A stretch of 64,000 nucleotides of DNA. It comes from Candidatus Lindowbacteria bacterium RIFCSPLOWO2_12_FULL_62_27. Its GTDB lineage: Bacteria > Lindowbacteria > 2-12-FULL-62-27. The position numbers and the translations under genes are program-made. This document shows positions 17,371-64,000 of the stretch, piece by piece (the first letter of the stretch is position 1; every line of letters begins with the position of its first letter). The DNA lies in assembly GCA_001784175.1 (NCBI GenBank), contig MFPR01000040.1:59046-123045 (forward strand), read 5' to 3'. A model generated the notes under the pieces. The model was not told where the DNA came from and ran no database searches. It worked only from the letters and a program-made list of their open reading frames with translations.

Positions 17371-17403
17371 AAGCGCCAAACAAAAATGGGGTGGAGGTCA
17401 GAC

Positions 17404-45600: not shown

Positions 45601-45695
45601 CATGGGGTTAGGATAGTGGGACCGTGAGGGTCCGGCGTAATTTGGGGCGCTTGGAGAGAGGCAGGGGGTTGGTTGTTATTTTTACAGGCGTTGTT

Positions 45696-45707
45696 GGAAG
45701 CGCTTAC
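45696..45707. promoter_or_regulatory. LacI-type operator GGAAGCGCTTAC, unit B
   Basis: Identical 12-mer to the unit A operator, 244 bases further on and 20 bases before the giant gene's start codon. Repressor here would act as a roadblock. Confidence 0.7.
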
Positions 45708-45727
45708 AACACAACCGGGGGGCCGTA

Positions 45728-48700
45728 ATGCCGAACGCGGGGTTGAACGGGAGGACCCGAACTGATTTGAGGATACTGGCAACGATGACGGTGGGGGTCT
45801 GCCCGTTTGTTCTGATGCTGCTGTGGGCGGTGGATGGCTGGGCGACGCCATTTCAGTATATGGGGTTCAACAATGGGACCGTGTATCGGGTGAATGTGGG
45901 GTCGACGTCGAATTACACCGACACCGGCGGGAACATCTGGTACGCGGACCGGGCGTACGACACGAACAGCACGGACGGGTTCGGGTATTCGGCGGGGAAG
46001 GGCGGGACGGCGGACACCGTGAGCGCGGACATCACGAGCACGACGCTGGATCCGCTGTATGCGTCGCACCGGTGGGGGGCCGAGATCGAGTACCGGTTTG
46101 ACGTGCCGTCGGCGGGCTGGGACACGGGCGGGATTTACGAGGTGATGATCCGGATCATCGAGCCGTTTTATCAGGCCGGGGGCCAGCGGGTGTTCAACAT
46201 CTATTTCAACGACCTCAGCATCTCGGCGCGCGGGTATCTGATGTTTCAGAGCGTGGATCCGTATTCGTGGTCCGGCGCGCGGTACAAGGCGATGGACATC
46301 ACGGTGCCGTATTTTCCGTGCAACGAAGGGACGCTTCGGATCACGTTCGTGCCGAACGGCGGGGACAACACGGCGCTGGTGTCGGCGATCCAGGTGCGGA
46401 AAGTGCCGTACATCGTGGACAACCTGAATATGACGAACGAGCAGTTTCTGGACAGTTACGAGCGGAAGATATTCAACTGGTTTTACACGGAGGTGATCGA
46501 CAATCAGTATTATCTACCCCCGTCGGAAGGGGGCTATGACGTGCCATGGAACGAAGCCTTTACGAGCATTGCCTCGATCTCTCCTGCGATTGCCGCGTAC
46601 GTGATCGGCCATTACCGGCAGTATCCGAAGCCGGGTACGACCCAGGCGTTCAGCTACAATGACGCGTACACGCGGGTGCTGGGCATTCTCAAAGGCGTGG
46701 GACAATTCGTCAAAGGCCCGAACGATCAGGACACGCCGGAGTGCACGGGCGGTCCACGGGCGTGTGATACGGTCTATTCGACGACCAGCATCTATTCGGA
46801 TCCAAGTCTCTATAAGAATCATTACACACAGACCTATCATCACCACTATCACCGCGAGCCATGGTGGAAATTCGGCCATCCGTTTCCGGGCTTTGACAAG
46901 TGGCGGTCGATCGACGACAACGGTGATCTGATGATCGGCATGATGCTTGCCGCCGAATATTTCAAAAACACTGAAATCGAGCTTAGAGCCCGCCAGCTTC
47001 TGGAGAGCATCAACTGGGGGAATTACTGGTTTGATCCGTGCTACTGCGAGCGGATGATGGCGTTTCTCGAATCGGCCGGTCAGCCCAGAGACGACCGCCG
47101 AACTGCGAATGACATCAACGCTTGGAACAATGCGTACTGGCAAGGCAATTACGGCGCCGCGATCTACTGGCACCAGTGGCAAAATCTCTGGTACGACGGC
47201 CGCAACACGCAGACCACGCAGGGCACTCAGGTAGGCCGAAATGATTTCAACGCGGATCAACAGCTCACTTTGGAGTTGCGCAAGCGTCAACAGGATATGT
47301 GGAAATACTTGCCCGATTGGTATAACACTTACGACTGGGATGCATGGGGCATAACGGCCGCTTCGCAGACGAACAGTTGTTACGGCGTAAACGGCTGGAT
47401 ACTTCCCACAAACAACTCAACTGACGCGGCGGCGATGAATGGCCAGGCCGGGTTTTGCGGAACGAACGAGTCAAGGAGCTACGGAGGCAACCTCAATCCC
47501 TTCGCCACCGTCGCGTCTCTGCCGTTTGCTCCGACAGAGGTTCTCAACGCAATGCGTCACATGTTCTGGCGTTTTGGTCCAACGTCTGAAGGAGGCTTGG
47601 GATATCCGCAATACATGGGAGGCCCCATCACCAGCACATACGGTTTCGCTCAGACGTACAACATTGGCGATCAGCCAGATGGTTCCCTTTGGTACAGGGC
47701 CACCGGCAACGCCGGATTCGACAATGGCCCGCAGATCATGGCAATCGAAAATTACCGCACCGGCCTGATTTGGAATTACATGATGCAAAGCGACTACATG
47801 AAGCGCGCGATGTGGCGGTTCAAGATGCAGGGCTTCAGCGATTCGCCGGCGCTGCCGATGAACACTGTCACCGGCATCCCCGGCGCCGTCCACGCGTCGA
47901 ATTCGACCGCGTCGCCCACCGACTGGGACGGGTACGGGCCGCCGCAGTCGTCGGGCAAGGCGATGTACGCGTTCGATCTTGACAAGATGAAGCGGTGGCA
48001 CGCGATGAAGGCGGACGCGGACACCGGAAACGTGACGCTGTCGGTGACGTTTCCGAACGGGAGCGAGCAGACGGTGGGGAGCGTGATTTTATGGTGGCAT
48101 GACGAGTACGCGACGGCCTACGACATTCGCGTCAAATCGACATCCGACACGTGGCACACCTATTATACGACGACGAGCGGCGACGGCACGGTCGACCGTC
48201 TCACCTTTTCGCCACCGATCGCCAACGCGCGCGCGGTCGAAATCGTGATGAAGACGCGCGTGAACGCAACGCTCGGTTATTCGATCTGGGAGGTCGAAAT
48301 CTACCCGGACGTGCTGGTGGCGACGGGCGCGCTGGTGGACGATTTTGAGGTGACGAGCGGCAAGAACCGTCTGGGCGGATCGATGGATCACTGGCCGTCC
48401 GGCACGACCTACGCGAACCACGCGTACGCGAGCGACAATTACTACGCCGGCAGCAAGGGCATGTGGATCTGGTATGACGTTCGCGCAGGGAATCCCTCCG
48501 GGGAGGCAGGATACTGGACGCAGGTCGCCAATTACGACGCGCGCAACTACAAATATCTGTCGCTTTGGGCGAAGGGATCGACCGGGACGGAAAATTTCCG
48601 TGTGCGCCTCAAGACGGAGCTGACGCCCGGCAATTTTGTCGAGGACGCCGGCGACACCACGTTCACCGCGTCGACGACGTGGACGCAGGTCATCATTCCG

Positions 48701-51700
48701 CTGGTCGTGTACGACGCGTCGAATTTGGCGGACTTGGACAACATCAACGTGTATTTTCACAACAGTTATGGCGGAAATCAAAACAGCCAGATCTGGATCG
48801 ACGACGTGCGGTTCGTGCAGGAGGAGGACCTTCCGCCGCCGGCGCCGACGGGCGCGGCGTCGGCCGCGTCGGGCGGGGACAATCTGATCACGTGGACGGC
48901 GATCCCCTCGCAGTATCAGGCGAATCTGGCCGGCTACAACGTGTACCGGAAGAAATGGACCACGACCGACACGGCGACGAAACTCACGGCCGTGCCGTTT
49001 GCCGGCACGACGTACAGCGACGCGTCGCTGCCTGCGGCCGACAGCACCGTGTGGGAGTATTACGTGACGGCGGTCAGTTCGAAGGGCCCGGAATCGGCGA
49101 AGAGCGGCACCGTGACGGCCATCCAGGGCAACGTGGATTTGAATTACAGCGACAGCCGGACGACGAACGCCTTCGGGCAGAACGACCTTGGCGCCTGGGG
49201 CGGCGCGATCAACACGTGGATCGACACGACGCAGAAAGACGGGTCGACCGGCAAATCGCGATACGTCAGCGCCGCGAACGGCGCCGGCGTATTTTCGTCC
49301 CTGCTGGACGTGGGCGTGACGGCGGACGGCGTGGTGGCACTGACGTTCGACGCGAAGGGAGCATCGGGCGGCGAGACGTTTCTAGTGGGGTTCAAGGACG
49401 GCGACGGCGTGTCCCCGCTGGAGGTGCAGGTGTCCATCGCCACATACGGCGGCGCGCTGACGACGTCGTGGAAGAGATACTCGATCCCGCTGGACGATTT
49501 CACCGGGATCAATTTTACGAAGCTCGACAACATTTCGTTCAGCCTCGCCGTCCCGTCGGCGAATTTTATGATCGACAACGCCGCGTTCAGCCCGTCGGAC
49601 ACGTCGACGGTGGTGATGGACCATTTCGACGACGGCATCACCGATTTCAATCCGGCGATCTCCGGCGGCGGCGAGTTCAGCTGGGGCGGCGCGGGCCGGA
49701 GCAAATCGCAGGGCGGCGCCCAGTTCTGGCGCTCGCCGCCGTACGGGCTGAATGTGAGCATCGTGTCCGGCGCGGGGCAGGGATTCGGCCAGTCGGTTCC
49801 GAGCTACAACGTATCGACGACCAAGTACCTCAGCCTCTGGGTCCGGGGGAGCGACCACTTTCAGAACGAGGACGTGCTGATCGGACTCAAGAGCTACACG
49901 GGCCCGACGGAGACGTATGTGCTTTTGTCGAAATACGTCACCCTCACCGACTCGGAGTGGCGCCGCGCGGTGATCCCGCTCAAAGACGTGAGCATCGACA
50001 CCAAGGCGATGGAGAACTGGTCGCTGCAGTTCCGGAGCGACAACGGCTATCGTGTACCGGGCAAGGGCGGGAACATTTACATTGACGACATCATGTTCAA
50101 GGCCGGCGCGCCTCAGACCCACACGAATTTCGACGTGATCTCGCCGGACACCATCACGATCGGCGAAACGTTTTCCGCCACGTTCAAGGCGACGCACCAG
50201 GACCGCGGAGTGCTGTCGACGTCGACGTACTCCGGCACCGGCGTGATCAGCCTGACCGGCATCGGCATCGACACGTATTTGCCCAAGTCGCTTGCGGCGT
50301 TCGCGAACGGCCAGCGCAGCGACTCGATGATCGTTTTCACCGACACGCCCGGGTACATCACGATCAAGCTCACGCATCCGACCGACTCGCTGATTTACGG
50401 CCACAAGGTTGTGCGGGCGATCAGCGGGAAGATCCGGCTGGAGGTTCTGACGGACCCGGTGTATTCCGGACGGCCGATCAATCTTCGCGCGACGGCGCTC
50501 GATTACAAGGGCGACACGCTGGCGTCGTTCAAGCAGTCCGCCGGGTTGGGCGTTTCGGGCGGCGTGGTCACGCCGGGGGGCACGTCGGCATTCGATACGG
50601 GCGTGTGGACCGGCGCTGCGACGGTGCATGCCGGGGGCACGGTGACGATCCGTGTGGAGAAGGACGGCTCGCAGGGCACGGCCGTGATATTTGTGCGCGC
50701 CCCGATTCAGATCGAAGAAGGCGCGGACGGCGGCAGTCCCAATTTGCTCGGCGGATGGACCTTCACGTGGCCCGACCCGAATTTCTCGATGACCTACTCG
50801 CAGACCCGGTCGTTCAACGACAGTTACGCTCTTCGATATTCCTACAACGTGCAGAGCGCGGGCTCGGGCGGCGGTTTCGGCCAGAGCCTGCAGAGCATCG
50901 ACATCCGGACGGCCTCGACGCTGTCGTTCTGGATTCTCGGGGAGAACGGCCTGGGTCTGAGCGGAGATCTGCGCGTGGGGATCAAGGACTCGAACGGGAT
51001 CGAAACACTGAAGGTCGTGACCGATTACGTTGTGCCTCGGCCGGACACATGGCGGCGGGCCATCATTCCGCTTACGGCGTTCACGGGCGTGGACACGTCG
51101 AGGATGGACAACTGGAATTTTCAGGTCGCGCCGACCGTCGGGCCGGCGCTTGTGACGGGGTACATCGATGACATTCGGTTCGACACGCACGTGCCGGATA
51201 CGTATGTGACGTTTGAGGTGGAGGCGCCGGCGACGGTCGTGACCGGGGAGACATTCATTTTGAAAGTGTGGGCGGTGCATCGAGACAGCGGCGTTTATTA
51301 TCCGGCGAACGAGACCGTCGCGTTTTCGGTATCGAGCGGGAGCATCCTGCCGTCGTCTCAGGCGCTGAAAGCCGGCGTCATCCGGGACTCGTTCAGTGTA
51401 AGCACGCCGGGCCAGATCGTGATCACCGCGACAGCGAACGGCCGGAGCGGCACGGCGACCGTGACGGTGTTGCCGGCGGGCAACGTGATCGTGGATGACT
51501 TTGAGGACGGGGATGCGGCGTACAACAATCTGGGCAAGACGACCGCGACGTGGAGCGTGCCGACGCGGGCGACGACCATCGATTCGCCCACGCGGGGCGG
51601 GATATCCGCCAAGTTCAGCTTCACGGCGACGAACACCCAGAACGGCGGGTGGGAGGAGCAGGTGGCGGCGAGTCCGGGCATGAACATTTCGTCCTTGAAT

Positions 51701-54700
51701 TCCCTCGCATTCTGGGCGCGCGCCGCGACGGCGACCCCTGAAAATTATTCAAAGATCGTCTACACGAGCGTTCGTGACACCGCGAACGTCGAGGCGCCGA
51801 ACCTGCCGCTGGACAGCTTCGTGCTCCTGAAGACCGGAGAATGGCGTCGCGTGATCATCCCGCTCGGGAACTTCACGGCGGACACGCGGCACATCAAGGA
51901 CATGAACATCCTGCGGATCGACAACCAGACCGGCGCCACCGTCACCGGATCGGTTTACGCGGACGACATCCATTTCACGTCAGACACGGGCGACGGCCTG
52001 AACGATTTCGAGGTCATCGCGCCGGCGACAGCGATGCTGGGCGAGACGTTCGCGATCAAGATCTACGCGCGGCACAAGGAGAAGGGGATTCTTTCCACGT
52101 ACAAGGACACCGTGACGTTCGATTCGCCCGCGGGCGTGCGGCCGGTTGCATCGGACTCGTTCGCCGGCGGGATCGTGCGGCAGCTCATCAGCCTGTCCGA
52201 AACAGGCATCCTGCAGCTTGTCGTGAAGTCCGGCGGGCGGTCCGGGACCGCGACGATCCGTGTCTATGACACGGCGACGGGACTGGCGATCCACACGATG
52301 GACACGGGCGGAAATCCCACGACGACGAATGATCTCGGGCAGGGGACGCTGACGTGGCTGGGCGGCGCCGCGGCGCCTGCCTACGACCGGTTCGACACGG
52401 TGACGCCGGGCCGCGCGAGCGCGACGGCCGCGAAATTCACGTTCGTCACGGACGCGGACGGCACGGATGGCGGGTACGAGGAGCGGTTTGCGTCTCCGTT
52501 CGACGCGAGCACGTACAGGTATCTGACCTACTGGCTGAAGGCCGGCGACACGGCGCAGCGGCTGAACGATCTCAAGACGTCGATCCGGGACGTCAACAAC
52601 AATGAAGTGACTTTGAATCTCAAGGATTACGTGCGCGCGAGCGCGAAGGAATGGCGGCGGGTTGTGGTGCCGTTCACGGATTTCGGCGCGGCGGTCGACA
52701 CGAAGGCGCTGAAGGACATGAACTGGGTGAGGTTCAGCGTGAGCGCGTCGCCGTCGACGATGACGCAGATGTATCTGGACGATCTGGCGTTCGCGGGCTA
52801 TCTGCCGAACGCGCTGTCAGGCTTTGAGATTTCGGCGCCGTCGAACGTGGTTCAGGGCGAGACGTTCGCGATCACGATCTACGCTTTCAACGAAGACAGC
52901 GGCATTTTGCGGTCGTTCACGTCGACCGCGAGCCTCTCCGGCTGTAGTCCGGCGATCACGGGCAGTTTCGAGACCGGTGTGCGGACGGAGTCGGTGTCGG
53001 TGAGCGGCACGGGAACGCTCACGATCACCGTGACGAGCGGCGGCAAAACGGGAAGTGTGCAGGTGCGCTCGATCGACACGGGCGCGCGTCTATTCGACGA
53101 CTTCAACAACGGCGTGGACCCGAACGAATTCGGCGGCGGCAATTTCACCTGGGGGTCGTTCACCACCGCCTACCATGCAGACGTCACGTATGCCGGGTTA
53201 TATTCGCAGAAGATGACCTATTCGACCGCCGCCGGCGGCGGATTTTTGATGTCTTTTGCCGCGGGCGACTCGAACGTGCGCCCGTACACGCATCTGTCCT
53301 TCTGGATGCGCGGCGACTTTGGCTACGAGACGGCCGCGAATCTCCGGATCGCGCTGAAGGACGCGACGGGCCTGGAGCTGTTCCAGTCGTATTCGAATTA
53401 CATGGACGTCGACACGGCCGCGTGGCGTTTGGCGGTCGTGCCGTTGAATCATTTTGCCGTGGACACGAGCCGGATGGACAACTTCAATATGCAGTTTGCC
53501 GGCACGCCGCTGAAATCGGGCGCCGGGTACATCGATGAGGTCTGGTTTCTGAAGAAGGACCCGGGGACGGACCACCTGGACGTGATCGCGGCGGACACCG
53601 TTTACGCGAGCGAGACGTTCACGCTGAAGGTGAAGGCGCACAACTACGGGCACGGGATCGCGACGAGTTTCGCCGGGACGGCGTCGCTTGCGCTGAACAC
53701 CGGCACGATCACGCCGGCGACGACGAACGCGCTCGGGACGGGTTCGGTCACCGTCAGCGCGTACATCGCCGTGCCGGGAACGGCGACCATCACGGCGACG
53801 TCCGGGGCTTATTCCGGCACCCGGACGATTCAGGTGGTAGGCGGTCCGTTTGCGAAGTTTTCGTTGTGGACCGACACGACGTTCCGGACGGCGGGCACGC
53901 CGTTCGCGCTGACGATTACGGCGACGGACACGCACGGATTCCGCACGCGATACCTGTCGGATTCGGCGCGGTTGTCGACGACGTTTGGGACAGGCTCGAT
54001 CCGGCCGGAGACCTCCGGGCTGTTCAACGGCGCTGAAACGGTGTCTGTCACGGTGACGTGCACCGCATCCGGCAGTCTGAATCTGATCGCGACGGCGACG
54101 AACGGCGAGACGGGCGGTCTTCTGATCAGCTTCGCGCCCGATTCGACCGTGCTGACCCAGCCGGCGCTGACGACGACAGAAACGCAGCCCACGTTTGCGT
54201 GGTCGGCGGTGACGGGCGCTGACACCTATCATTTCCAGATCGACGACGACACGACGTTCGCAACGCCGGTATACAGCGCCGACACGCTGACGGCGACGTC
54301 GTTCGCCTATCCCGCGGCGCTGGTGGCGAAGACCTACTACTGGCGGGTGCGCGCCGGCGAGCGGGATAACGGGCTGTGGAGCGGCTGGAGCGACACGCGG
54401 GCGCTGACGGTGGACACAGCGCCGCTGGTGAGTGTACTTTCGCCGGTGGACACGCACGAGACGAACGACACGACGCCGTCGTTTACGTGGAGCGGCAGGG
54501 CCGACACGTACGTTTTCCAGATTTCGCGGGTCGACACGTTTTCGCCGCTGATCGACAGCAAGACCCAGAGCGGGACGAGCTACACGCCGTCGGGCAGCGT
54601 CTCGTATGCGGCCGACACCTATTTCTGGCGGATCGTGGCCGGCGACAGTTTGGGCAAGATCGACACAAGTCCCGCACGGTTTCTGATCGTGGACACTATC

Positions 54701-57700
54701 ACGACGATCACGCTGACGGGGCCGGCCGACACGACGACCAGCGCCGATACGACGCCGGCGTTTTCGTGGGCGGGCGACGGCGACACGTTTGTGTTTCAGA
54801 TCGCGAAGGACACGGCATTCAGCAACGTCAGGGACACGAAAATAACAGCGGCGTTTTCGTACGCGCCGGACAGCGGCTATTCCGAGGACACGTATTTCTG
54901 GCGCGTTCTCGCGCTGGACATCGCCGGCAACGCGGACACCCCCGCGCACCGGATGGTTGTGATTGACACGCGCGCCACGGTTGCGCTGTCGACGCCGGGG
55001 GACTCGCACGAGACATCGGACACGACACCCGCGTTTACGTGGAGCGGCAGGGCGGACAGCTTTACATTCCAGGTTTCGCGCCTGACGACGTTCGACACGC
55101 TGATCGACAGCGCGACGCAGGCGGGGACAAGTTACACGCCGGCCGGAAGCGTCTGGTATGCGGCCGACACGTACTGGTGGCGCGTCGTCGCGAAAAACAT
55201 TGCGGGGAATTTCGACACATCGTCGCGCTGGATGCTGGTGGTGGACACGAAGGTTGCGGTGACGTTGGCGTCGCCGGTGGACGGCGTTGTGAGCAACGAC
55301 TCGACGCCTTCGTTTACGTGGACAAGCGACGGCGACACGTTTGTGTTTCAGATCGCGCGGGACACGGCCTTTGGAAACGTGCGGGACACGAAGACGACGG
55401 CGGCGCTGTCCTATACGCCGGATACCGGATACGCCTATGACACCTACTTCTGGCGCGTCTTGGCGCTGGACATCGCGGGGAACGCGGAGACCGCCGCCTA
55501 TCGGACGCTGGTGATCGATTCGCGCGTGTCGGTGACGCTGACGGGCCCGGGGGATTCGTATGAGACGAACGACACGACGCCGGCGTTCACGTGGGTCGGG
55601 ACCGGCGACAGTTACACGTTTCAGATTTCCCGGAGCGAGACGTTCGCGACGATCGCGGACAGCCAGATGGCGTCCGGGACCACGTACACGCCGTCGGGCG
55701 GCGTCTTCTACGCGGCAGACACATACTTTTGGCGGGTGATCGCGAAGAACATCGCCGGCAACATGGACACAGCCGCGCGGCGGATGATCGTGGTGGACAC
55801 GATCGTGAGTGTGACGCTGGAGAGTCCCGTGGATTCGGCCGTCGTGAGCGACACGACGCCCACGCTGATCTGGACGAGCGACGGGGACACGTTCACGGTG
55901 CAGGTGTCGAAATCGGCCGCGTTCACGGCGCTGGTGGACAGCAAGACGACGACCGCGTTGACGTACACGCCGTCGGGCGGATATGGCGCCGATACCCATT
56001 ACTGGCGGATCGTTGCGACAGACGCGGCGGGCAACACGGACACGAGCGCGTATCGAAAATTCGAGATCGACACGAGTTTGAGCGTGACATTGTCGAGCCC
56101 GGCCGATTCGACGGAGACGAACGACACGACGCCCACGTTTGCCTGGTCGGGCGACGCCGACACCTTCACGGTCCAGATTTCGAAATCCGAAACTTTCTCG
56201 GCGATCTTTGACAGCAAATCCGCGGCGGCATTGAATTATACGCCGTCGCCCGGCTACGCCGCCGACACCTATTTCTGGCGGGTGCTGGCGACGGACAGGG
56301 CCGGCAACGCCGACACGACCGCCTATCGGAAACTCGTCATCGACACGATCGTCACGGTGAGCCTGTCGAGTCCGGGAGATTCGGCGGAGACGAACGACAC
56401 GACGCCGGCGTTTACGTGGAGCGGCACGGGCGACACGTACACGATTCAGGTTTCGAAGTCAGACACGTTCGACGGCATCGTTGACAGCAAGACGACCGCG
56501 ACGACCGGTTACACGCCCTCGTCAGGGTATGTCGCCGACACGTACTTCTGGCGGGTGATCGCCGGCGACAAGGCCGGAAATCTGGACACGTCCGCGCGCC
56601 GCCGGTTCGTGGTCGACACGATCGTCGCCGTGAGTCTGCTCTTGCCGGCGGATTCGACGGAGACGAACGACACGACGCCGGCGTTTACGTGGAGCGGGAC
56701 CGGCGACACCTACACGATACAAGTCTCCCGGACGACAACCTTCGGCACGATACATGACAGCCGAACGGCGAGCGCGGCGAGTTACACGCCGCCTGCGGGG
56801 TACGTCGCGGACACGTACTTTTGGCGAGTCATCGCGTCGGATGACGCCGGCAACCATGAGACGTCGGCCTACCGGATGGTGGCCGTGGATACCGGCGTGA
56901 CGGTGAACCTGTCGAGTCCTTCCGACACGTATCGAACGAACGACACGACGCCGGCGTTCGCGTGGACCGGCACGGGCGACACATACGTGGTTCAGACGTC
57001 GCGGACCGCCGCGTTTTCGACGATCTTCGACAGCAGGACGACTTCCGCTCTGAGTTATACGCCGTCCGGCAGCGTCTATTATTTCGCGGACAGTTATTAC
57101 TGGCGTGTGATCGCGCAGGATGACGCGGGGAACTACGAGACGGCGTCGGCGCGTGCGCTGATCGTTGACACGCTGGTGACGGTGAGCGCGAGCAGTCCCG
57201 CGGATTCATTGGAGACGCGGGACACGACCCCGACGTTCACGTGGACGGGCGACGGCGATACCTACGTGCTTCATATCTCGAAGGCCGACACGTTCGAGCC
57301 GCTGTTCGATGGGCTGACGACGACGGGGCTGACATACACGCCGAGTCCCGGTTATGCGCCGGCAACGTACCACTGGCGGGTGATCGCGCTGGACGTTGCG
57401 GGCAATCAGGAGACGACGGCGGCCCGGCGGGTGATCGTCGACACTTCCGTGACGGTGGGTTTGACGTCTCCCGCGGATTTGGCGGAGACAAACGACACGA
57501 CGCCCGCGTTTACGTGGACGGGGGACGGAGACACGTATGTGGTGCAGGTATCGAGGGAGGCGGGATTCGGGACAATCGCGGACAGCAAGACCACGATCGC
57601 GGCGACGTACACGCCGAGTCCGGGGTACGGAGCGGACACGTACTATTGGCGTGTCATCGCGAGTGACGATGCGGGGAACACGTCGGCGACGGGATACCGG

Positions 57701-60700
57701 ACGCTGTACGTGGACACGGGCGTGACGGTGAGTCTGACGAGTCCGGCGGACGGGCACGAGACGAAGAACGTGACGCCGGGATTCGCGTGGAGCGGGGACG
57801 CAGACACGTACGTGGTGCAGGTATCGAGGCAGACGAGTTTCGGGACAATCGCGGACAGCAAGACGACCAATGGGTTGACTTACGCGCCGGTAAGCGTGTA
57901 TGCGGCGGACACGTACTACTGGCGTGTGATTGCGAGCGACGATGCGGGGAACACGTCGACCGCGGGATATCGAGTGCTGGTGGTGGACACGAAGGTGAGC
58001 GTGAGCCAGTCGCTGCCGTTGGACGGTCACGAGACGCGGAACGTGACGGTGCGGTTCGAGTGGACGGGGGACGGGGATACGTACGTGGTGCAGGTATCGA
58101 AGCAGGCGACGTTCGGGACGGTGTATGACAGCCGGACGACGAGTGGGGCGAGTTACACGCCGTCAAGCGGGTATGCGCACGACACGTACTACTGGCGAGT
58201 GATCGCGAGCGACGATGCGGGCAACTACGAGACGACGGTGGCCCGCACCCTGACGATCGACACGAAGGTGAGCGTGAGTTTAACCGCGCCGGGGGACACG
58301 TACGAGACGAAGAACGTGACGGTGCAGTTTGTGTGGACGGGGGATGGAGACACGTACGAGGTGCAGGTTTCGAAGACGGCGGGATTCGGGACGATCCACG
58401 ACAGCAAGACGACGACGGGCGTGAGTTACATGCCAGCGAGCGGATATCCGCAGGACACGTACTATTGGCGAGTGGTGGCGCGGGACGAAGCGGGGAACTT
58501 TGAGACGAGCGTGACGCGGGCGCTGGTGATCGACACGTCGGTGACGGTGAGCCTGACGAGTCCGGGGGACACGGCGGAGACGAACGACACAACGCCCGCG
58601 TTTGTGTGGAGCGGGACGGGGGACACGTACGTGATCCAGGTATCGAAGTTCAGCGCGTTCAGCGTTCTGTTTGACGCGTTGACGACAGGCGCAGTGACGT
58701 ACACGCCGAGTGCGGGCTATGCGTCGGCGACATACTACTGGCGGGTGATCGCGCAGGACGACGCGGGGAACTACGAGACGGCGTCGGCGCGGTCGCTGAT
58801 CGTGGACACTTCTGTGACGGCGAGTCTGACGACGCCGGCGGATTTGGCTAAGACGAACGACACGACGCCTGCGTTTACGTGGACGGGAGATGGAGACACG
58901 TACGTGGTGCAGGTATCGAAGGAGGCGGGCTTCGGGACGATCGCGGACAGCAGGACGGCGAACGGAGTGACGTACACGCCGAGTCCTGGGTACGGGGCGG
59001 ACACGTACTATTGGCGGGTGATCGCGAGCGACGATGCGGGGAACACGACGGTGACGGGATACCGGACGTTGTACGTGGACACGGGAGTGACAGTGAGTTT
59101 GACGAGTCCGGTGGACGGGCACGAGACGAAGAACGTGACGCCGGGATTTGCGTGGAGCGGAGACGGGGACACCTACGAGGTGCAGGTATCGAAGCAGACG
59201 AGCTTCGGGACGATGGCGGACAGCAAGACGACGACGGGGCAGAGCTATGTGCCGGTGAGCGTCTATGCGGCGGACACGTACTACTGGCGAGTGATCGCGA
59301 CGGACCAGGCGGGGAACACGACGGTGGCGGGATACCGGACGCTGGTGGTGGACACGAAGGTAAGCGTGAGCCAGGCGGTGCCGTTGGACGGGCACGAGAC
59401 GCGGAACGTGACGGTGCGGTTCGAGTGGACGGGGGATGGAGACACGTACGTGGTGCAGGTATCGAAGCAGGCGGGTTTTGGTGCGGTGTATGACAGCAAG
59501 ACGACGGGGGTGACGAGCTACACGCCGTCGAGCGGGTATGGGCACGACACGTACTATTGGCGCGTGATCGCGCAGGACGACGCGGGGAACTACGAGACGA
59601 CGTCGGCGCGTGCGCTGATGATCGACACGAAGGTGAGCGTGAGTTTAACGGCGCCGGGGGACACGTACGAGACGAAGAACGTAACGGTGCAGTTTGTGTG
59701 GACGGGGGATGGGGACACGTACGAGGTGCAGGTCTCGAAGACGGCGGGATTCGGGACGATCCACGACAGCAAGACGACGCCGGGCGTGAGTTACACACCG
59801 GCGAGCGGATATGCGCAGGACACGTACTTTTGGCGGGTGATTGCGCGGGACGAAGCGGGGAACTTTGAGACGAGCGTGACGCGTGCGCTGGTGATCGACA
59901 CGTCTGTGACGGTGAGTCTGACGAGTCCGGGGGACACGGCGGAGACGAACGACACGACGCCGGCATTCACGTGGACGGGGACCGGTGACACATACACGAT
60001 CCAGGTATCGAAATTCAACACGTTCAGCGTTCTGTTTGACGCGGTGACGACGGTGGCGTCGACGTACACGCCGAGTCCGGGGTACGGGCCGGCGACGTAT
60101 TACTGGCGAGTGATCGCGTGGGACGACGCGGGGAACTACGAGACGGCGGAGGTCCGAACGCTGATCGTGGACACGAGCGTGAGCGCGAGTCTGACGAGTC
60201 CGGCGGACCTGGCGAAGACGAGCGACACGACGCCGGCGTTCACGTGGAGCGGGGACGGGGACACGTACGAGGTGCAGGTGTCGAAGCAGACGACATTCAG
60301 TACGATCACGGACAGCAAGACGGCGAACGGAGTGAGTTACACGCCGACGCCGGGATACGGCGCGGACACGTACTACTGGCGAGTGATCGCGCGGGACGAC
60401 GCGGGGAACACGGCGGTGACGGGGTATCGAACGCTGTATGTGGACACGGGTGTAACGGTGAGTCTGACGAGTCCGTCGGATGGGCACGAGACGAAGAACG
60501 TGACGCCTGCGTTCACGTGGAGCGGAGACGGGGACACGTATGAGGCGCAGGTGTCGAAGCAGACGACATTCGGGACGATCTATGACAGCAAGACGACGAA
60601 CGGAGTGAGTTACGCGCCGATCGGCGTATACGCGGCGGACACCTACTACTGGCGGGTGATCGCGTCGGACGCGGCCGGGAACACGACGACGGCGGCATAC

Positions 60701-63700
60701 CGGACGCTGGTGGTGGACACGAAGGTGAGCGTAAGCCAGACGCTGCCGTTGGACGGCCACGAAACGAAGAACTTGGCGGTGCAGTTTGAGTGGAACGGCG
60801 ACGGAGACACGTACGAGGTGCAGGTGTCGAAACAGACGACCTTCGGAACGATCCACGACAGCAAGACGACAACAGGCGCGAGCTACACGCCCGGGAGCGG
60901 ATACGCGCACGACACGTATTATTGGCGGGTGATTGCGCGGGACGACGCGGGGAACTACGAGACGACGACGGCGCGGACGCTGACGATCGACACGAAGGTA
61001 AGCGTGAGTCTGACGGCGCCGGGGGACACGTACGAGACGAAGAACGTGACGGTGCAACTGGTGTGGAGCGGGGATGGGGACACATACGAGGTGCAGGTAT
61101 CGAAGGCGGCGGCGTTCGGGACGATCCACGACAGCAAGACGACGACGGGGGTGAGTTACACGCCGGCGAGCGGATACCCGCAGGACACGTACTATTGGCG
61201 GGTGATTGCGCGGGATGACGCGGGGAACTACGAGACGAGCGCGATACGAGCGCTGGTGATCGACACCCTCGTGACGGTGAGCCTGACGAGTCCGGCGGAC
61301 ACGGCGACGACGAACGACACGACGCCTTCGTTTGTGTGGACGGGGACCGGGGACACGTACACGATCCAAGTATCGAGGTTCAGCACGTTCAGTGTTCTGT
61401 TTGACGCGGTGACTGGTTCGTCCCAGAACTACACACCGACCGGATATCCTCAGGACACATACTATTGGCGGGTCGTTGCGTGGGATGACGCCGCCAACTA
61501 TGAGACGACGGCCTCCAGAAAACTGATCATTGATACGGATGTGGCCGTCACCCAGAGCAATCCTTCGCATCTCTACAAAACAGGCGATACGACTCCGGCT
61601 TTTACATGGACCGGCGACGCCGACACGTACGTTTTTCAGATATCGACGAGCAACGCCTTCATCACGATTTATGACAGTCTGACAACGGCGGCGTTGACGT
61701 ATACGCCCACGACCGGTTATCCGGTGGATACGTATTACTGGCGGATATCCGGAATCGACTTGTTGGCCAACCAGGAGACGACGTCGGCCCGCACACTCTT
61801 TGTGGATACTGGGCTTACGGTGAACCTGGTCAGTCCGGAAGACACCTATATCACGAACGACACGACTCCCACATTTGTGTGGAGCAGCAACGGCGATACC
61901 TTTCTCATTGAAATCAGCCGCAACTATAATTTCTCCACGATCTTCGACAGCAAGAATACGACAGGCACCACCACGTATACGCCGTCGACCGGATACACGT
62001 CCGATACGTATTACTGGCGGGTGGCGGTCGCCGACAATACCGGGAAGGCGGACACCGCTCTGCCCTACGGCATCCCGCAGGTTCTGATCATCGATACGGC
62101 GCCGCCCGGCGCTCCAACGCTGACCGCGCCTGCCGATTCAAATCAAACGAAGAACAAAACGCCCGCCTTTACGTGGTCGGGAGATGCCGACACCTATGTC
62201 ATCGAGATTTCAAAAAGTTATTCGTTCGGCTCGACCGTTTACGCGGAAACCACCCTGGCGACGATCACTTCCTCGGCCTCATTCACCCAAGACACCTATT
62301 ACTGGCGTGTCAGGGGATACGACCACGCGCGCAATGCCGGACCCTCCAGTGAGACCCGAACCCTACATATTGATACGCAGCTCAGCGTGACACTCTTGAC
62401 GCCGGCGGAATTGACGGAGACGAACGACACGACGCCGGCATTCGCGTGGAGCGGCGACGGGGAGACGTATACGTTTCTGCTGTCAAAGACCGTTACGTTC
62501 AGCGCCATTTACGACAGCAAGACTACGGCGGCATCGACGTACGCCCCGGATACGGGTTACCCGACGGATACGTATTACTGGCGCGTGAACGCTCAGGACC
62601 GGGCGGGGAATTCAGAGACAACCTCCATTCGCAGTGTATGGGTGGACACGGGGGTATCAGTGAGTTTGACGTTGCCGGCGGACGGGCATGAGACGAGGAA
62701 CGCGACGGTGCAGATGGCATGGAGCGGAGACGCGGACACGTACGAGGTGCAGGTATCGAAGGATACGGGGTTCGGAACGATCTACGACAGCAGGACGACG
62801 ACGGCATTGAGTTACACGCCGGCGAGCGTGTACCCGCAGGACACGTACTGGTGGCGTGTGACGGCGCGGGACGATGCGGGGAACCAGGAGACGACGGGGT
62901 ACCGGAGGCTGATGGTGGACACGACGGTGACGGTGAGCCAGACGAGCCCGTCTGACACGGCGGAGACGAACGACACGACGCCGGCGTTCACATGGGCGGG
63001 TACGGGAGACACGTACGTGGTGCAGGTCTCGAATCTGGCGACGTTTGCGACGATCTTGGACGTGGCGACGACGACGAGCGCGACGTACACGCCAAGTCCG
63101 GGGTACGGGCCGGGCCTGTATTACTGGCGAGTGGTGGGGTGGGACGATGCGGGGAACTACGAGACGACGGCGACGCGAGTGGTGACGGTGGACACGAAGG
63201 TGAGCGTGAGTTTGAGCAGTCCGGTGGACACGGCGGAGACGAACGACACGACGCCGACGTTTACGTGGACGGGAGACGGAGAGACGTACGTGGTGCAGGT
63301 ATCGACGAGCGCGGGATTCGGGACGATTTACGACAGCAAGGCGACGGGGGGACTGACGTACACGCCGAGTCCGGGGTACGCGACGGACACGTACTATTGG
63401 CGCGTGGTGGTGAACGACACGGCGGGGAACTACGAGACGGCGTCGTCGCGGCGGTTGAAGATCGATTTGGGAGTGAACGTGAGTTTGACGAGTCCAGTGG
63501 ACGGGCATGAGACGAAGAACGTGATCCCGACGTTTGAATGGAGCGGAGACGGGGACACATACACGATCCAGATATCGAAGTCGAGCGCGTTTGCGACGAT
63601 CCATGACAGCGTGACGACGACGGGATTGAGTTACACGCCGGCGAGCATCTACCCGGCGGACACATACTACTGGCGTGTGAGCGCACAGGACAACGCTGGG

Positions 63701-64000
63701 AACAGCAACACGGCGACTTCACGGACGCTGTACATGGACACGATCGTGAGTGTGAGTTTGGCGGGACCCGGGGATGGGCATGAGACGAAGAACACGACGC
63801 CGACGTTCGTGTGGGCGGGAGACGGTGACACGTATGTGGTGCAGGTGACGAAGCAGGGGACGCTGTATGACAGCAAGACGACGACCTCGCTGAGCTACAC
63901 GCCGTCGGCGGTGTATCCGACGGACACGTACCAGTGGCGTGTGATCGCGCAGGACGACGCGGGGAACTACGAGACGACGGGGTACCGGAGCGTGTGGGTG
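45728..64000 (+). CDS. Giant secreted malectin-GH144-like multimodular protein, 3' end beyond the window
   Basis: One frame stays open from ATG 45728 to the last base, 6,091 codons; I checked the phase at several points. The first 39 residues form a signal peptide (basic n-region 'RTRTDLR', core 'VCPFVLMLLWAVDGWA'). Then: malectin about 40-231 ('YRVNVGSTSNYTDTGG'); divergent Glycoamylase/GH144-type domain about 235-712, linked to its paralogues by 'PQIMAIENYRTGLIWNYMMQ'; discoidin-like about 715-862; CBM-like and one Fn3 module to about 1,460; alternating CBM-like and Ig-like modules to about 2,800; and 36 Fn3-like repeats of about 91 residues. An alternative ATG at 45785 lacks basic residues before the hydrophobic core. 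It is probably a cell-surface enzyme on a very long stalk. The C-terminal anchor is unseen. Confidence 0.88.
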   Translation, partial: MPNAGLNGRTRTDLRILATMTVGVCPFVLMLLWAVDGWATPFQYMGFNNGTVYRVNVGSTSNYTDTGGNIWYADRAYDTNSTDGFGYSAGKGGTADTVSADITSTTLDPLYASHRWGAEIEYRFDVPSAGWDTGGIYEVMIRIIEPFYQAGGQRVFNIYFNDLSISARGYLMFQSVDPYSWSGARYKAMDITVPYFPCNEGTLRITFVPNGGDNTALVSAIQVRKVPYIVDNLNMTNEQFLDSYERKIFNWFYTEVIDNQYYLPPSEGGYDVPWNEAFTSIASISPAIAAYVIGHYRQYPKPGTTQAFSYNDAYTRVLGILKGVGQFVKGPNDQDTPECTGGPRACDTVYSTTSIYSDPSLYKNHYTQTYHHHYHREPWWKFGHPFPGFDKWRSIDDNGDLMIGMMLAAEYFKNTEIELRARQLLESINWGNYWFDPCYCERMMAFLESAGQPRDDRRTANDINAWNNAYWQGNYGAAIYWHQWQNLWYDGRNTQTTQGTQVGRNDFNADQQLTLELRKRQQDMWKYLPDWYNTYDWDAWGITAASQTNSCYGVNGWILPTNNSTDAAAMNGQAGFCGTNESRSYGGNLNPFATVASLPFAPTEVLNAMRHMFWRFGPTSEGGLGYPQYMGGPITSTYGFAQTYNIGDQPDGSLWYRATGNAGFDNGPQIMAIENYRTGLIWNYMMQSDYMKRAMWRFKMQGFSDSPALPMNTVTGIPGAVHASNSTASPTDWDGYGPPQSSGKAMYAFDLDKMKRWHAMKADADTGNVTLSVTFPNGSEQTVGSVILWWHDEYATAYDIRVKSTSDTWHTYYTTTSGDGTVDRLTFSPPIANARAVEIVMKTRVNATLGYSIWEVEIYPDVLVATGALVDDFEVTSGKNRLGGSMDHWPSGTTYANHAYASDNYYAGSKGMWIWYDVRAGNPSGEAGYWTQVANYDARNYKYLSLWAKGSTGTENFRVRLKTELTPGNFVEDAGDTTFTASTTWTQVIIPLVVYDASNLADLDNINVYFHNSYGGNQNSQIWIDDVRFVQEEDLPPPAPTGAASAASGGDNLITWTAIPSQYQANLAGYNVYRKKWTTTDTATKLTAVPFAGTTYSDASLPAADSTVWEYYVTAVSSKGPESAKSGTVTAIQGNVDLNYSDSRTTNAFGQNDLGAWGGAINTWIDTTQKDGSTGKSRYVSAANGAGVFSSLLDVGVTADGVVALTFDAKGASGGETFLVGFKDGDGVSPLEVQVSIATYGGALTTSWKRYSIPLDDFTGINFTKLDNISFSLAVPSANFMIDNAAFSPSDTSTVVMDHFDDGITDFNPAISGGGEFSWGGAGRSKSQGGAQFWRSPPYGLNVSIVSGAGQGFGQSVPSYNVSTTKYLSLWVRGSDHFQNEDVLIGLKSYTGPTETYVLLSKYVTLTDSEWRRAVIPLKDVSIDTKAMENWSLQFRSDNGYRVPGKGGNIYIDDIMFKAGAPQTHTNFDVISPDTITIGETFSATFKATHQDRGVLSTSTYSGTGVISLTGIGIDTYLPKSLAAFANGQRSDSMIVFTDTPGYITIKLTHPTDSLIYGHKVVRAISGKIRLEVLTDPVYSGRPINLRATALDYKGDTLASFKQSAGLGVSGGVVTPGGTSAFDTGVWTGAATVHAGGTVTIRVEKDGSQGTAVIFVRAPIQIEEGADGGSPNLLGGWTFTWPDPNFSMTYSQTRSFNDSYALRYSYNVQSAGSGGGFGQSLQSIDIRTASTLSFWILGENGLGLSGDLRVGIKDSNGIETLKVVTDYVVPRPDTWRRAIIPLTAFTGVDTSRMDNWNFQVAPTVGPALVTGYIDDIRFDTHVPDTYVTFEVEAPATVVTGETFILKVWAVHRDSGVYYPANETVAFSVSSGSILPSSQALKAGVIRDSFSVSTPGQIVITATANGRSGTATVTVLPAGNVIVDDFEDGDAAYNNLGKTTATWSVPTRATTIDSPTRGGISAKFSFTATNTQNGGWEEQVAASPGMNISSLNSLAFWARAATATPENYSKIVYTSVRDTANVEAPNLPLDSFVLLKTGEWRRVIIPLGNFTADTRHIKDMNILRIDNQTGATVTGSVYADDIHFTSDTGDGLNDFEVIAPATAMLGETFAIKIYARHKEKGILSTYKDTVTFDSPAGVRPVASDSFAGGIVRQLISLSETGILQLVVKSGGRSGTATIRVYDTATGLAIHTMDTGGNPTTTNDLGQGTLTWLGGAAAPAYDRFDTVTPGRASATAAKFTFVTDADGTDGGYEERFASPFDASTYRYLTYWLKAGDTAQRLNDLKTSIRDVNNNEVTLNLKDYVRASAKEWRRVVVPFTDFGAAVDTKALKDMNWVRFSVSASPSTMTQMYLDDLAFAGYLPNALSGFEISAPSNVVQGETFAITIYAFNEDSGILRSFTSTASLSGCSPAITGSFETGVRTESVSVSGTGTLTITVTSGGKTGSVQVRSIDTGARLFDDFNNGVDPNEFGGGNFTWGSFTTAYHADVTYAGLYSQKMTYSTAAGGGFLMSFAAGDSNVRPYTHLSFWMRGDFGYETAANLRIALKDATGLELFQSYSNYMDVDTAAWRLAVVPLNHFAVDTSRMDNFNMQFAGTPLKSGAGYIDEVWFLKKDPGTDHLDVIAADTVYASETFTLKVKAHNYGHGIATSFAGTASLALNTGTITPATTNALGTGSVTVSAYIAVPGTATITATSGAYSGTRTIQVVGGPFAKFSLWTDTTFRTAGTPFALTITATDTHGFRTRYLSDSARLSTTFGTGSIRPETSGLFNGAETVSVTVTCTASGSLNLIATATNGETGGLLISFAPDSTVLTQPALTTTETQPTFAWSAVTGADTYHFQIDDDTTFATPVYSADTLTATSFAYPAALVAKTYYWRVRAGERDNGLWSGWSDTRALTVDTAPLVSVLSPVDTHETNDTTPSFTWSGRADTYVFQISRVDTFSPLIDSKTQSGTSYTPSGSVSYAADTYFWRIVAGDSLGKIDTSPARFLIVDTITTITLTGPADTTTSADTTPAFSWAGDGDTFVFQIAKDTAFSNVRDTKITAAFSYAPDSGYSEDTYFWRVLALDIAGNADTPAHRMVVIDTRATVALSTPGDSHETSDTTPAFTWSGRADSFTFQVSRLTTFDTLIDSATQAGTSYTPAGSVWYAADTYWWRVVAKNIAGNFDTSSRWMLVVDTKVAVTLASPVDGVVSNDSTPSFTWTSDGDTFVFQIARDTAFGNVRDTKTTAALSYTPDTGYAYDTYFWRVLALDIAGNAETAAYRTLVIDSRVSVTLTGPGDSYETNDTTPAFTWVGTGDSYTFQISRSETFATIADSQMASGTTYTPSGGVFYAADTYFWRVIAKNIAGNMDTAARRMIVVDTIVSVTLESPVDSAVVSDTTPTLIWTSDGDTFTVQVSKSAAFTALVDSKTTTALTYTPSGGYGADTHYWRIVATDAAGNTDTSAYRKFEIDTSLSVTLSSPADSTETNDTTPTFAWSGDADTFTVQISKSETFSAIFDSKSAAALNYTPSPGYAADTYFWRVLATDRAGNADTTAYRKLVIDTIVTVSLSSPGDSAETNDTTPAFTWSGTGDTYTIQVSKSDTFDGIVDSKTTATTGYTPSSGYVADTYFWRVIAGDKAGNLDTSARRRFVVDTIVAVSLLLPADSTETNDTTPAFTWSGTGDTYTIQVSRTTTFGTIHDSRTASAASYTPPAGYVADTYFWRVIASDDAGNHETSAYRMVAVDTGVTVNLSSPSDTYRTNDTTPAFAWTGTGDTYVVQTSRTAAFSTIFDSRTTSALSYTPSGSVYYFADSYYWRVIAQDDAGNYETASARALIVDTLVTVSASSPADSLETRDTTPTFTWTGDGDTYVLHISKADTFEPLFDGLTTTGLTYTPSPGYAPATYHWRVIALDVAGNQETTAARRVIVDTSVTVGLTSPADLAETNDTTPAFTWTGDGDTYVVQVSREAGFGTIADSKTTIAATYTPSPGYGADTYYWRVIASDDAGNTSATGYRTLYVDTGVTVSLTSPADGHETKNVTPGFAWSGDADTYVVQVSRQTSFGTIADSKTTNGLTYAPVSVYAADTYYWRVIASDDAGNTSTAGYRVLVVDTKVSVSQSLPLDGHETRNVTVRFEWTGDGDTYVVQVSKQATFGTVYDSRTTSGASYTPSSGYAHDTYYWRVIASDDAGNYETTVARTLTIDTKVSVSLTAPGDTYETKNVTVQFVWTGDGDTYEVQVSKTAGFGTIHDSKTTTGVSYMPASGYPQDTYYWRVVARDEAGNFETSVTRALVIDTSVTVSLTSPGDTAETNDTTPAFVWSGTGDTYVIQVSKFSAFSVLFDALTTGAVTYTPSAGYASATYYWRVIAQDDAGNYETASARSLIVDTSVTASLTTPADLAKTNDTTPAFTWTGDGDTYVVQVSKEAGFGTIADSRTANGVTYTPSPGYGADTYYWRVIASDDAGNTTVTGYRTLYVDTGVTVSLTSPVDGHETKNVTPGFAWSGDGDTYEVQVSKQTSFGTMADSKTTTGQSYVPVSVYAADTYYWRVIATDQAGNTTVAGYRTLVVDTKVSVSQAVPLDGHETRNVTVRFEWTGDGDTYVVQVSKQAGFGAVYDSKTTGVTSYTPSSGYGHDTYYWRVIAQDDAGNYETTSARALMIDTKVSVSLTAPGDTYETKNVTVQFVWTGDGDTYEVQVSKTAGFGTIHDSKTTPGVSYTPASGYAQDTYFWRVIARDEAGNFETSVTRALVIDTSVTVSLTSPGDTAETNDTTPAFTWTGTGDTYTIQVSKFNTFSVLFDAVTTVASTYTPSPGYGPATYYWRVIAWDDAGNYETAEVRTLIVDTSVSASLTSPADLAKTSDTTPAFTWSGDGDTYEVQVSKQTTFSTITDSKTANGVSYTPTPGYGADTYYWRVIARDDAGNTAVTGYRTLYVDTGVTVSLTSPSDGHETKNVTPAFTWSGDGDTYEAQVSKQTTFGTIYDSKTTNGVSYAPIGVYAADTYYWRVIASDAAGNTTTAAYRTLVVDTKVSVSQTLPLDGHETKNLAVQFEWNGDGDTYEVQVSKQTTFGTIHDSKTTTGASYTPGSGYAHDTYYWRVIARDDAGNYETTTARTLTIDTKVSVSLTAPGDTYETKNVTVQLVWSGDGDTYEVQVSKAAAFGTIHDSKTTTGVSYTPASGYPQDTYYWRVIARDDAGNYETSAIRALVIDTLVTVSLTSPADTATTNDTTPSFVWTGTGDTYTIQVSRFSTFSVLFDAVTGSSQNYTPTGYPQDTYYWRVVAWDDAANYETTASRKLIIDTDVAVTQSNPSHLYKTGDTTPAFTWTGDADTYVFQISTSNAFITIYDSLTTAALTYTPTTGYPVDTYYWRISGIDLLANQETTSARTLFVDTGLTVNLVSPEDTYITNDTTPTFVWSSNGDTFLIEISRNYNFSTIFDSKNTTGTTTYTPSTGYTSDTYYWRVAVADNTGKADTALPYGIPQVLIIDTAPPGAPTLTAPADSNQTKNKTPAFTWSGDADTYVIEISKSYSFGSTVYAETTLATITSSASFTQDTYYWRVRGYDHARNAGPSSETRTLHIDTQLSVTLLTPAELTETNDTTPAFAWSGDGETYTFLLSKTVTFSAIYDSKTTAASTYAPDTGYPTDTYYWRVNAQDRAGNSETTSIRSVWVDTGVSVSLTLPADGHETRNATVQMAWSGDADTYEVQVSKDTGFGTIYDSRTTTALSYTPASVYPQDTYWWRVTARDDAGNQETTGYRRLMVDTTVTVSQTSPSDTAETNDTTPAFTWAGTGDTYVVQVSNLATFATILDVATTTSATYTPSPGYGPGLYYWRVVGWDDAGNYETTATRVVTVDTKVSVSLSSPVDTAETNDTTPTFTWTGDGETYVVQVSTSAGFGTIYDSKATGGLTYTPSPGYATDTYYWRVVVNDTAGNYETASSRRLKIDLGVNVSLTSPVDGHETKNVIPTFEWSGDGDTYTIQISKSSAFATIHDSVTTTGLSYTPASIYPADTYYWRVSAQDNAGNSNTATSRTLYMDTIVSVSLAGPGDGHETKNTTPTFVWAGDGDTYVVQVTKQGTLYDSKTTTSLSYTPSAVYPTDTYQWRVIAQDDAGNYETTGYRSVWV
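54149..64000 (+). repeat. Array of 36 Fn3-like 91-residue repeats, continuing past the window
   Basis: Each unit is about 273 bases and reads like 'ETNDTTPAFTWSGDGDTY' ... 'DTYYWRVIA' ... 'DDAGNYET' ... 'VDT'. Early units (54149 to about 57445) are more diverged, while those from 57446 are very similar at DNA level. The DAGN motif recurs every 273 bases exactly from 57665 to 58757. Unit 36 is cut by the window end. Confidence 0.92.
57446..61537 (+). repeat. Three tandem copies of a five-unit superblock
   Basis: Blocks 57446-58810, 58811-60175 (each exactly 1,365 bases) and 60176-61537 (1,362 bases, one codon lost in its last unit) repeat the same order of five distinguishable Fn3-like types. 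These open respectively with 'TSPADLA(E/K)T', 'GVTVSLTSP.DGHETKNVTP', 'KVSVSQ..PLDGHET', 'KVSVSLTAPGDTYETKN' and '(S/L)VTVSLTSP.DTA.TNDTTP'. Confidence 0.88.

Follow-up and report, generated by a model that had tools for sequence, protein, structure and literature searches.

A giant open frame probably encoding a GH144-like surface glucanase on a stalk of Ig-like repeats, with its likely type IX secretion tail on another contig

The window, that is, the whole stretch of 64,000 nucleotides analysed here, corresponds to positions 59046-123045 of contig C40 (123,045 bp), and the contig stops at the window's final base. The host genome comprises 4.39 Mb in 44 contigs and is 94% complete. Besides the giant gene that is the subject of this work, the window constitutes a carbohydrate-degradation cluster encoding three further PF10091 enzymes, a GH5 enzyme, a GH3 protein with PA14 and a GH15-like protein, together with discoidin proteins, thioredoxin-like proteins and a sigma-54 activator. 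The coordinates of the relevant features are collected in Table 1.

Table 1. Features of the giant gene and its surroundings (positions in the window unless a contig is given; residues are those of the giant protein)
Feature	Coordinates	Strand	Basis or remark
5' part of the giant gene	45728..64000	+	6,091 codons; runs off contig C40
Putative signal peptide, residues 1-40	45728..45847	+	basic n-region, hydrophobic stretch, small residues before the mature part
Malectin domain, residues 52-208	45881..46351	+	PF11721, 45.7 bits (cut-off 23), E 8.7e-12
GH144-like (alpha/alpha)6 putative catalytic domain, about residues 235-712	46430..47863	+	PF10091, clan GH-S structures, E441/D397
Discoidin-like (F5/8 type C) domain, residues 748-838	47969..48241	+	PF22633, 26.6 bits, cut-off 27.8
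About seven CBM30-like modules with interspersed Ig/Fn3-like modules, residues 871-2804	48338..54139	+	PF21582, C-terminal motif
36 tandem Ig-like repeats, mostly 91 aa	54140..64000	+	hmmsearch and lag analysis
Likely 3' part of the giant gene	G000:C44:58735-64488 (L033:2733-8489:-)	minus	1,918 codons and stop
Operator-like palindrome TTGTTGGAAGCGCTTACAACAC	45691..45712	.	LacI/GalR-type look, just 5' of the giant's start codon; putative role
PF10091 enzyme, 1,148 aa	330..3776	+	PF10091, 175.5 bits
Smaller T9SS cargo, 864 aa, CBM30 and type A tail	8329..10923	+	TIGR04183, 25.6 bits, cut-off 23
PorV/PorQ-family gene overlapping the stop codon of 8329-10923	10920..12365	+	NF033709, 126 bits, cut-off 90
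Ordinary-sized paralogue, 876 aa, malectin-PF10091-discoidin	17386..20016	+	Pfam
Ordinary-sized paralogue, 964 aa, malectin-PF10091-discoidin	24952..27846	+	Pfam
GH3 beta-glucosidase-like protein with PA14	39828..42461	+	Pfam

The sequence-only reading that preceded this analysis had described one uninterrupted frame of more than 6,000 codons from position 45728 to the last base, and the frame was indeed free of stops and of N (0 of each in 6,091 codons). The open frame itself begins at 45641, upstream of the ATG, and reaches 6,120 codons, a length with a chance probability of about 1e-89 given the base composition of the window, from which the longest open run expected is about 250 codons. 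Third-position GC stayed between 0.78 and 0.88 all along the giant frame, as expected of a true coding frame. A spurious frame or an assembly artefact was ruled out by the length, the codon-position GC, the coherent domains and the regular 91-aa repeats. Since contig C40 ends where the window ends, the gene is cut by the assembly, within the repeat array.

Palindromes around AAGCGCTT occurred at two sites only in the 4.39 Mb (≤2 mismatches), one being the operator-like site upstream of the giant and the other lying at 30576-30597, where it overlaps the annotated start of ORF 30576-34238; this second site may be a chance occurrence.

The N-terminal part of the giant protein is modular. The putative signal peptide was read by eye from the sequence, and the start codon and the cleavage site are approximate. 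Profile checks of this region gave a Pfam match over the cut-off for the malectin domain (PF11721), as earlier proposed, and also bore out the proposed CBM/Ig modules, the CBM30-like family PF21582 matching two stretches of the giant (61.6 bits) and the C-terminal motif giving a count of seven such modules. The discoidin domain was present at the place assigned to it, but its score fell slightly under the cut-off; the same domain occupies the equivalent place in the neighbouring paralogues. The Pfam search of the giant gave no domain directed at peptidoglycan.

Between the malectin and discoidin domains, residues 235-712 had been attributed to PF10091. The match is significant (62.8 bits, cut-off 27; E 4e-17) but Pfam covers residues 461-688 only, whereas the GH144-like fold spans the longer range according to profile and fold comparison. 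A profile built from the giant and the three window paralogues, which carry most of the signal, matched GH144 structures over their full length (8xul, E 1.5e-82; 5gzh, E 4.7e-61); with the giant alone as query only 4gl3 was found (E 2.8e-7). An AlphaFold model of residues 222-745, built on the four window sequences, was of low confidence (pLDDT 40.5, pTM 0.53); a scan of viral contigs supplied no further rows for the alignment, and one of a collection of genome contigs with the catalytic domain had no hits. The ten best PDB rows of this low-confidence model nevertheless all belonged to clan GH-S (Z 14.9-21.9), the next row dropping to Z 9.1, and GH144 structures stood at the top, with rows within 1 Z counted as tied. 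By sequence profile and comparison of the predicted fold, the domain has a GH144-like fold of clan GH-S.

In the characterised enzyme CpSGL, the general acid is E211 and the candidate base E142, and E211, F268 and Y330 are clan residues (PMC12102758). An alignment in agreement with the published numbering of CpSGL places E441 of the giant at the general acid, D397 at the candidate base and Y480 at the pocket residue F268; Y330 corresponds to Q573, a position that adjoins an insertion and where the alignment is uncertain. Judged from these positions, the domain is probably catalytic. Activity on beta-1,2-glucan is plausible only, because two pocket residues are changed. The giant had the lowest PF10091 score among the seven matches in the host genome. 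Another of the PF10091 paralogues, at C40:49847-50479 (175.6 bits), carries G at the catalytic acid position and W in place of the conserved F, and is possibly a non-catalytic or altered enzyme.

The repeat array starts at residue 2805, and hmmsearch together with lag analysis recovered exactly the 36 repeats previously counted. Their earlier description as Fn3-like was less accurate, as they score as the bacterial Ig-like family Big_13 and match the BIg domains of SiiE best, with Fn3 folds close behind. A three-repeat segment was predicted as all-beta domains (pLDDT 95), and its best solved match, both by fold and by sequence profile, was Salmonella SiiE (2yn5, 2yn3), followed by many Fn3 arrays. 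Identity among repeats 14-30 peaked at every fifth repeat (74% at lag 5 and 67% at lag 10, vs. 53-60% at other lags), a higher-order periodicity that is a sign of block duplication. The array contains no cysteine. A Bacteroidota O-glycosylation motif, D[ST][AILVMT], was observed 57 times in the array as compared to 35 by shuffling; as the repeats share descent, no claim is drawn from this moderate enrichment.

These features could also be read as those of a giant adhesin, whose modules and repeats bind polysaccharide along the whole length and whose GH144-like domain is non-hydrolytic or acts on another polymer. The low PF10091 score and the two altered pocket positions (F to Y, Y to Q) are in agreement with this, as are the about seven CBM30-like modules and the fact that SiiE, the closest fold of the repeats, is itself an adhesin (PMC6272769). 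We consider it unlikely, since the positions of the general acid and of the candidate base are both retained and the gene is surrounded by active-looking glucan enzymes; the acid lost in the paralogue at C40:49847 indicates that such a loss is possible, but it did not take place in the giant.

The gene had been expected to continue past the window, and its continuation was sought genome-wide through the repeats. Those nearest to the end of C40 lie on contig C44, in a minus-strand frame that enters from the right end of that contig. Among the giant frames compared, all 16 repeats of C44 had their best external match in the giant gene, and 34 of the 36 repeats of C40 had theirs in C44. Repeats 1 and 2 of C44 were 83 and 77% identical to repeats 33 and 34 of C40, respectively (83% DNA identity over ~530 bp), whereas repeat 3 of C44 had no match to repeat 35 of C40; the two contigs therefore do not overlap, and the possibility that C44 is an overlapping variant of the C40 end was ruled out. 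Taken together, the two parts amount to at least 8,009 aa (~861 kDa) and at least 52 repeats (36 + 16), plus the gap between the contigs. From these repeat comparisons, the 3' part of the giant very probably lies on C44 and the gene is probably at least 8,009 codons long. The size and the anchor, which lay beyond the sequence-only reading, are in this way largely resolved, the likely anchor being a type IX secretion system (T9SS) type A tail reached through C44.

The C44 frame might instead be the end of a different giant gene, the end of our giant being unassembled and perhaps bearing another anchor. The host genome does contain many giant genes broken at contig ends, and the join of C40 to C44 derives from repeat sequences and not from reads. 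The reciprocal best repeats (16/16 and 34/36) and the two syntenic repeats at 77-83% identity make this improbable; moreover, the C44 frame has the correct orientation and reading frame for the join, and other contigs are far off, the complete, internal gene of C6 reaching only ~53%. Most other giants with a visible end also finish in a T9SS tail, so even if C44 belonged to another gene the same mechanism would probably apply.

The C-terminus of the C44 frame matched the T9SS type A sorting domain TIGR04183 (24.5 bits for the tail and 29.2 in the genome search; cut-off 23). It is followed by a PorV/PorQ-family gene (NF033709, 196 bits, cut-off 90), whose start overlaps the stop codon of the frame (ATGA). 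The smaller cargo of the window and the PorV-family gene at 10920-12365 are arranged in the same way. Tails over the cut-off numbered 28 in the host genome, many of them on giant frames; tailed frames include some of 9,114, 7,200, 5,498, 5,224, 5,038, 4,954, 4,540, and 4,115 codons. Seven tailed genes had a PorV-family gene directly downstream, six of these exceeding the NCBIfam cut-off and one scoring 87.5 against 90; four examples of PorV-family genes adjoining cargos gave 196, 186, 174, and 126 bits (cut-off 90). Three other large T9SS-tailed frames were directly followed, with a 4-base overlap, by members of a second protein family with a 'RRERLETLEELRRT'-like start after a signal-like stretch (L067:1600-3087, L069:10732-12177, and L079:9650-11068); this family gave no NCBIfam match and is possibly a second class of partner.

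Regarding the secretion machinery, a frame of 1,826 codons was SprA-like (E 1.3e-19 over ~316 aa; 69 bits, in contrast with a curated cut-off of 200); it matched neither a Pfam family nor a PDB sequence. Searches for a PorU-type peptidase/sortase and for the GldM motor gave no match in the host genome, nor did they in the control genomes. In Bacteroidota, PorV recognises type A tails, whereas type B cargos, including the giant adhesin SprB, rely on PorP/SprF-like partners whose genes are often linked to theirs (PMC12618676, PMC9143113).

Giant frames carrying PF10091 were scarce. In 386 genomes, nearly all PF10091 frames measured either 236-1,618 aa or about 2,100-3,100 aa, the latter class being of the size of cyclic-glucan synthases, and the earlier statement that GH144-type enzymes usually have a few hundred residues was broadly right. 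Partial matches in frames of 10,168 and 11,357 aa were found in two other, unrelated genomes of that set (G286:C89 and G357:C3; L178-L182); from their ends and the PF10091 region, these two giants look unrelated in build. A PF10091-bearing giant is therefore rare, not unique. No orthologue of the giant was found in the family relatives G001 and G002, both fragmented genomes, and T9SS tails were present in both. In draft genomes, giant genes of this type break within their repeats onto separate contigs and are consequently under-counted.

Other large frames of the host deserve mention. The opposite end of C40 is occupied by an open frame of at least 10,454 codons that runs off the contig (G000:C40:1-31362, minus strand; L058, L059), with FlgD_ig and CHU_C-like domains located internally, at about residues 2068-2152, in its N-terminal third. 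A PF10091 frame of at least 2,757 codons (G000:C28:2-8272; L061) has the size of cyclic beta-1,2-glucan synthases, and the host itself may make a beta-1,2-glucan. An 8,313-codon frame (G000:C6:121122-146060; L064, L034, L035) combines a GH13 alpha-amylase and GH57 with Ig/Fn3 repeats. Its C-terminus imperfectly resembles a type A tail (TIGR04183, 20.8 bits, below the cut-off), it is followed by a PorV-family gene and, as far as its predicted domains indicate, it is built to the same plan as the giant glucanase.

The first 493 aa of the host RpoB had best matches of just 35-40% identity, in Kryptonia, KSB1, Calditrichales, Ignavibacteria, Zixibacteria, Bacteroidota and other records of a collection from which near relatives may be absent; the host can thus be placed no finer than deep FCB-like. 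As a tentative proposal, for which we claim rather less than even confidence, a deep-branching lineage outside Bacteroidota would possess a divergent T9SS exporting many giants, each type A cargo with its own downstream PorV-family partner rather than one shared PorV, and the giant glucanase and the 8,313-aa GH13/GH57 protein would be members of a set of long-stalked surface enzymes.

All these factors taken together make it likely that the giant is a GH144-like glucanase of clan GH-S that sits at the N-terminal, distal end of a stalk of Ig-like domains, is exported by the T9SS and is anchored through its C-terminus. The N-terminal signal peptide would send the chain through Sec, after which a T9SS with the SprA-like translocon would recognise the type A sorting domain encoded on C44, and the PorV-family protein encoded immediately downstream would receive and hold the tail. 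With the C-terminus anchored, the repeats, at least 52, would form the stalk and the malectin/GH144-like/discoidin/CBM30-like part would stay outermost, some 170-200 nm away if the chain is extended, on the scale of SiiE, whose 53 Ig domains measure 175 nm (PMC6272769). That the enzyme is held far from the cell on a stalk had already been suggested, and the Ig-like array, its SiiE-like fold, the T9SS tail and the PorV-family neighbour argue for it. The outermost head would then bind and cut a beta-glucan of other cells or of the matrix, beta-1,2-glucan or a related polymer being the most likely, and the smaller enzymes of the cluster (PF10091 paralogues, GH3, and GH5) may carry digestion further. 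As for its origin, the order malectin-PF10091-discoidin is common to the giant and to two neighbours (876 and 964 aa), so the giant probably derives from such an enzyme; a copy of the ordinary-sized enzyme would have been fused to a T9SS-tailed repeat array grown by tandem duplication.

The target polymer could alternatively belong to the envelope of prey or partner cells, the enzyme serving as a contact weapon, a role already suggested for other giant proteins of bacteria, and not for nutrient scavenging. Giant ORFs with carbohydrate-degrading domains occur in suspected predators (PMC10066038, PMC12057145), and a T9SS-secreted grappling-hook protein works in ixotrophy (PMC11205867). Nevertheless, the neighbours look like those of polysaccharide digestion (GH3, GH5, and the three further PF10091 enzymes of the window) and the giant lacks a peptidoglycan-directed domain in the Pfam search, which renders a weapon very unlikely.

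Most giant ORFs have few annotated domains, and in this case a giant bacterial surface enzyme gains a concrete anchor, a size estimate and a candidate partner. If the stalked glucanase proposed here is true, the T9SS can display glycoside hydrolases far beyond the cell surface, and type A cargos may have dedicated PorV-family shuttles, as type B cargos have PorP/SprF.

As compared with GH144 enzymes (CpSGL, 5GZH/5GZK; XcSGL, 8XUL) and clan GH-S, the giant is alike in fold, in PF10091 and in the positions of the acid and the candidate base. It differs from these compact enzymes in two changed pocket residues, in an insertion of ~35 residues near residues 330-365, and in carrying thousands of stalk residues. 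SiiE shares with it a rod of more than 50 bacterial Ig-like domains (PMC6272769; 2yn3, 2yn5), the 52 of the giant including the repeats of C44; in contrast, SiiE is an adhesin that leaves the cell by type I secretion and carries no enzyme. The SprB-SprF pair of Flavobacterium johnsoniae likewise consists of a giant repetitive T9SS cargo and an outer-membrane partner encoded nearby. The tail of SprB, an adhesin, is however of type B and its partner PorP-like, whereas in the giant, a probable enzyme, the tail is of type A and the partner of the PorV family; membership of the SprB-SprF type was ruled out because the tail scores as type A and the partner belongs to the PorV/PorQ family, and the two systems would only work alike.

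Multi-modular cellulases linked to the T9SS were already known in Ca. Paraporphyromonas, with which the giant has in common the plan of a glycoside hydrolase, binding modules and a T9SS tail (PMC5831590). It is at least four times longer than the ~1,900-aa example described there, has its PorV-family partner encoded next door, and comes from a lineage that RpoB places far from Bacteroidota. Giant ORFs with carbohydrate-active domains are known in Omnitrophota and other PVC bacteria (PMC10066038, PMC12057145), and resemble the present one in their thousands of residues, their carbohydrate-active domains and their uncultured hosts; the giant belongs to a different lineage and combines a T9SS tail with a defined stalk of Ig-like domains, with no multi-spanning membrane regions reported. 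What is new is the combination of a GH144-like head, an Ig-like stalk, a T9SS type A tail and an adjacent PorV-family gene in a lineage divergent by RpoB (≤40% identity to the named records matched).
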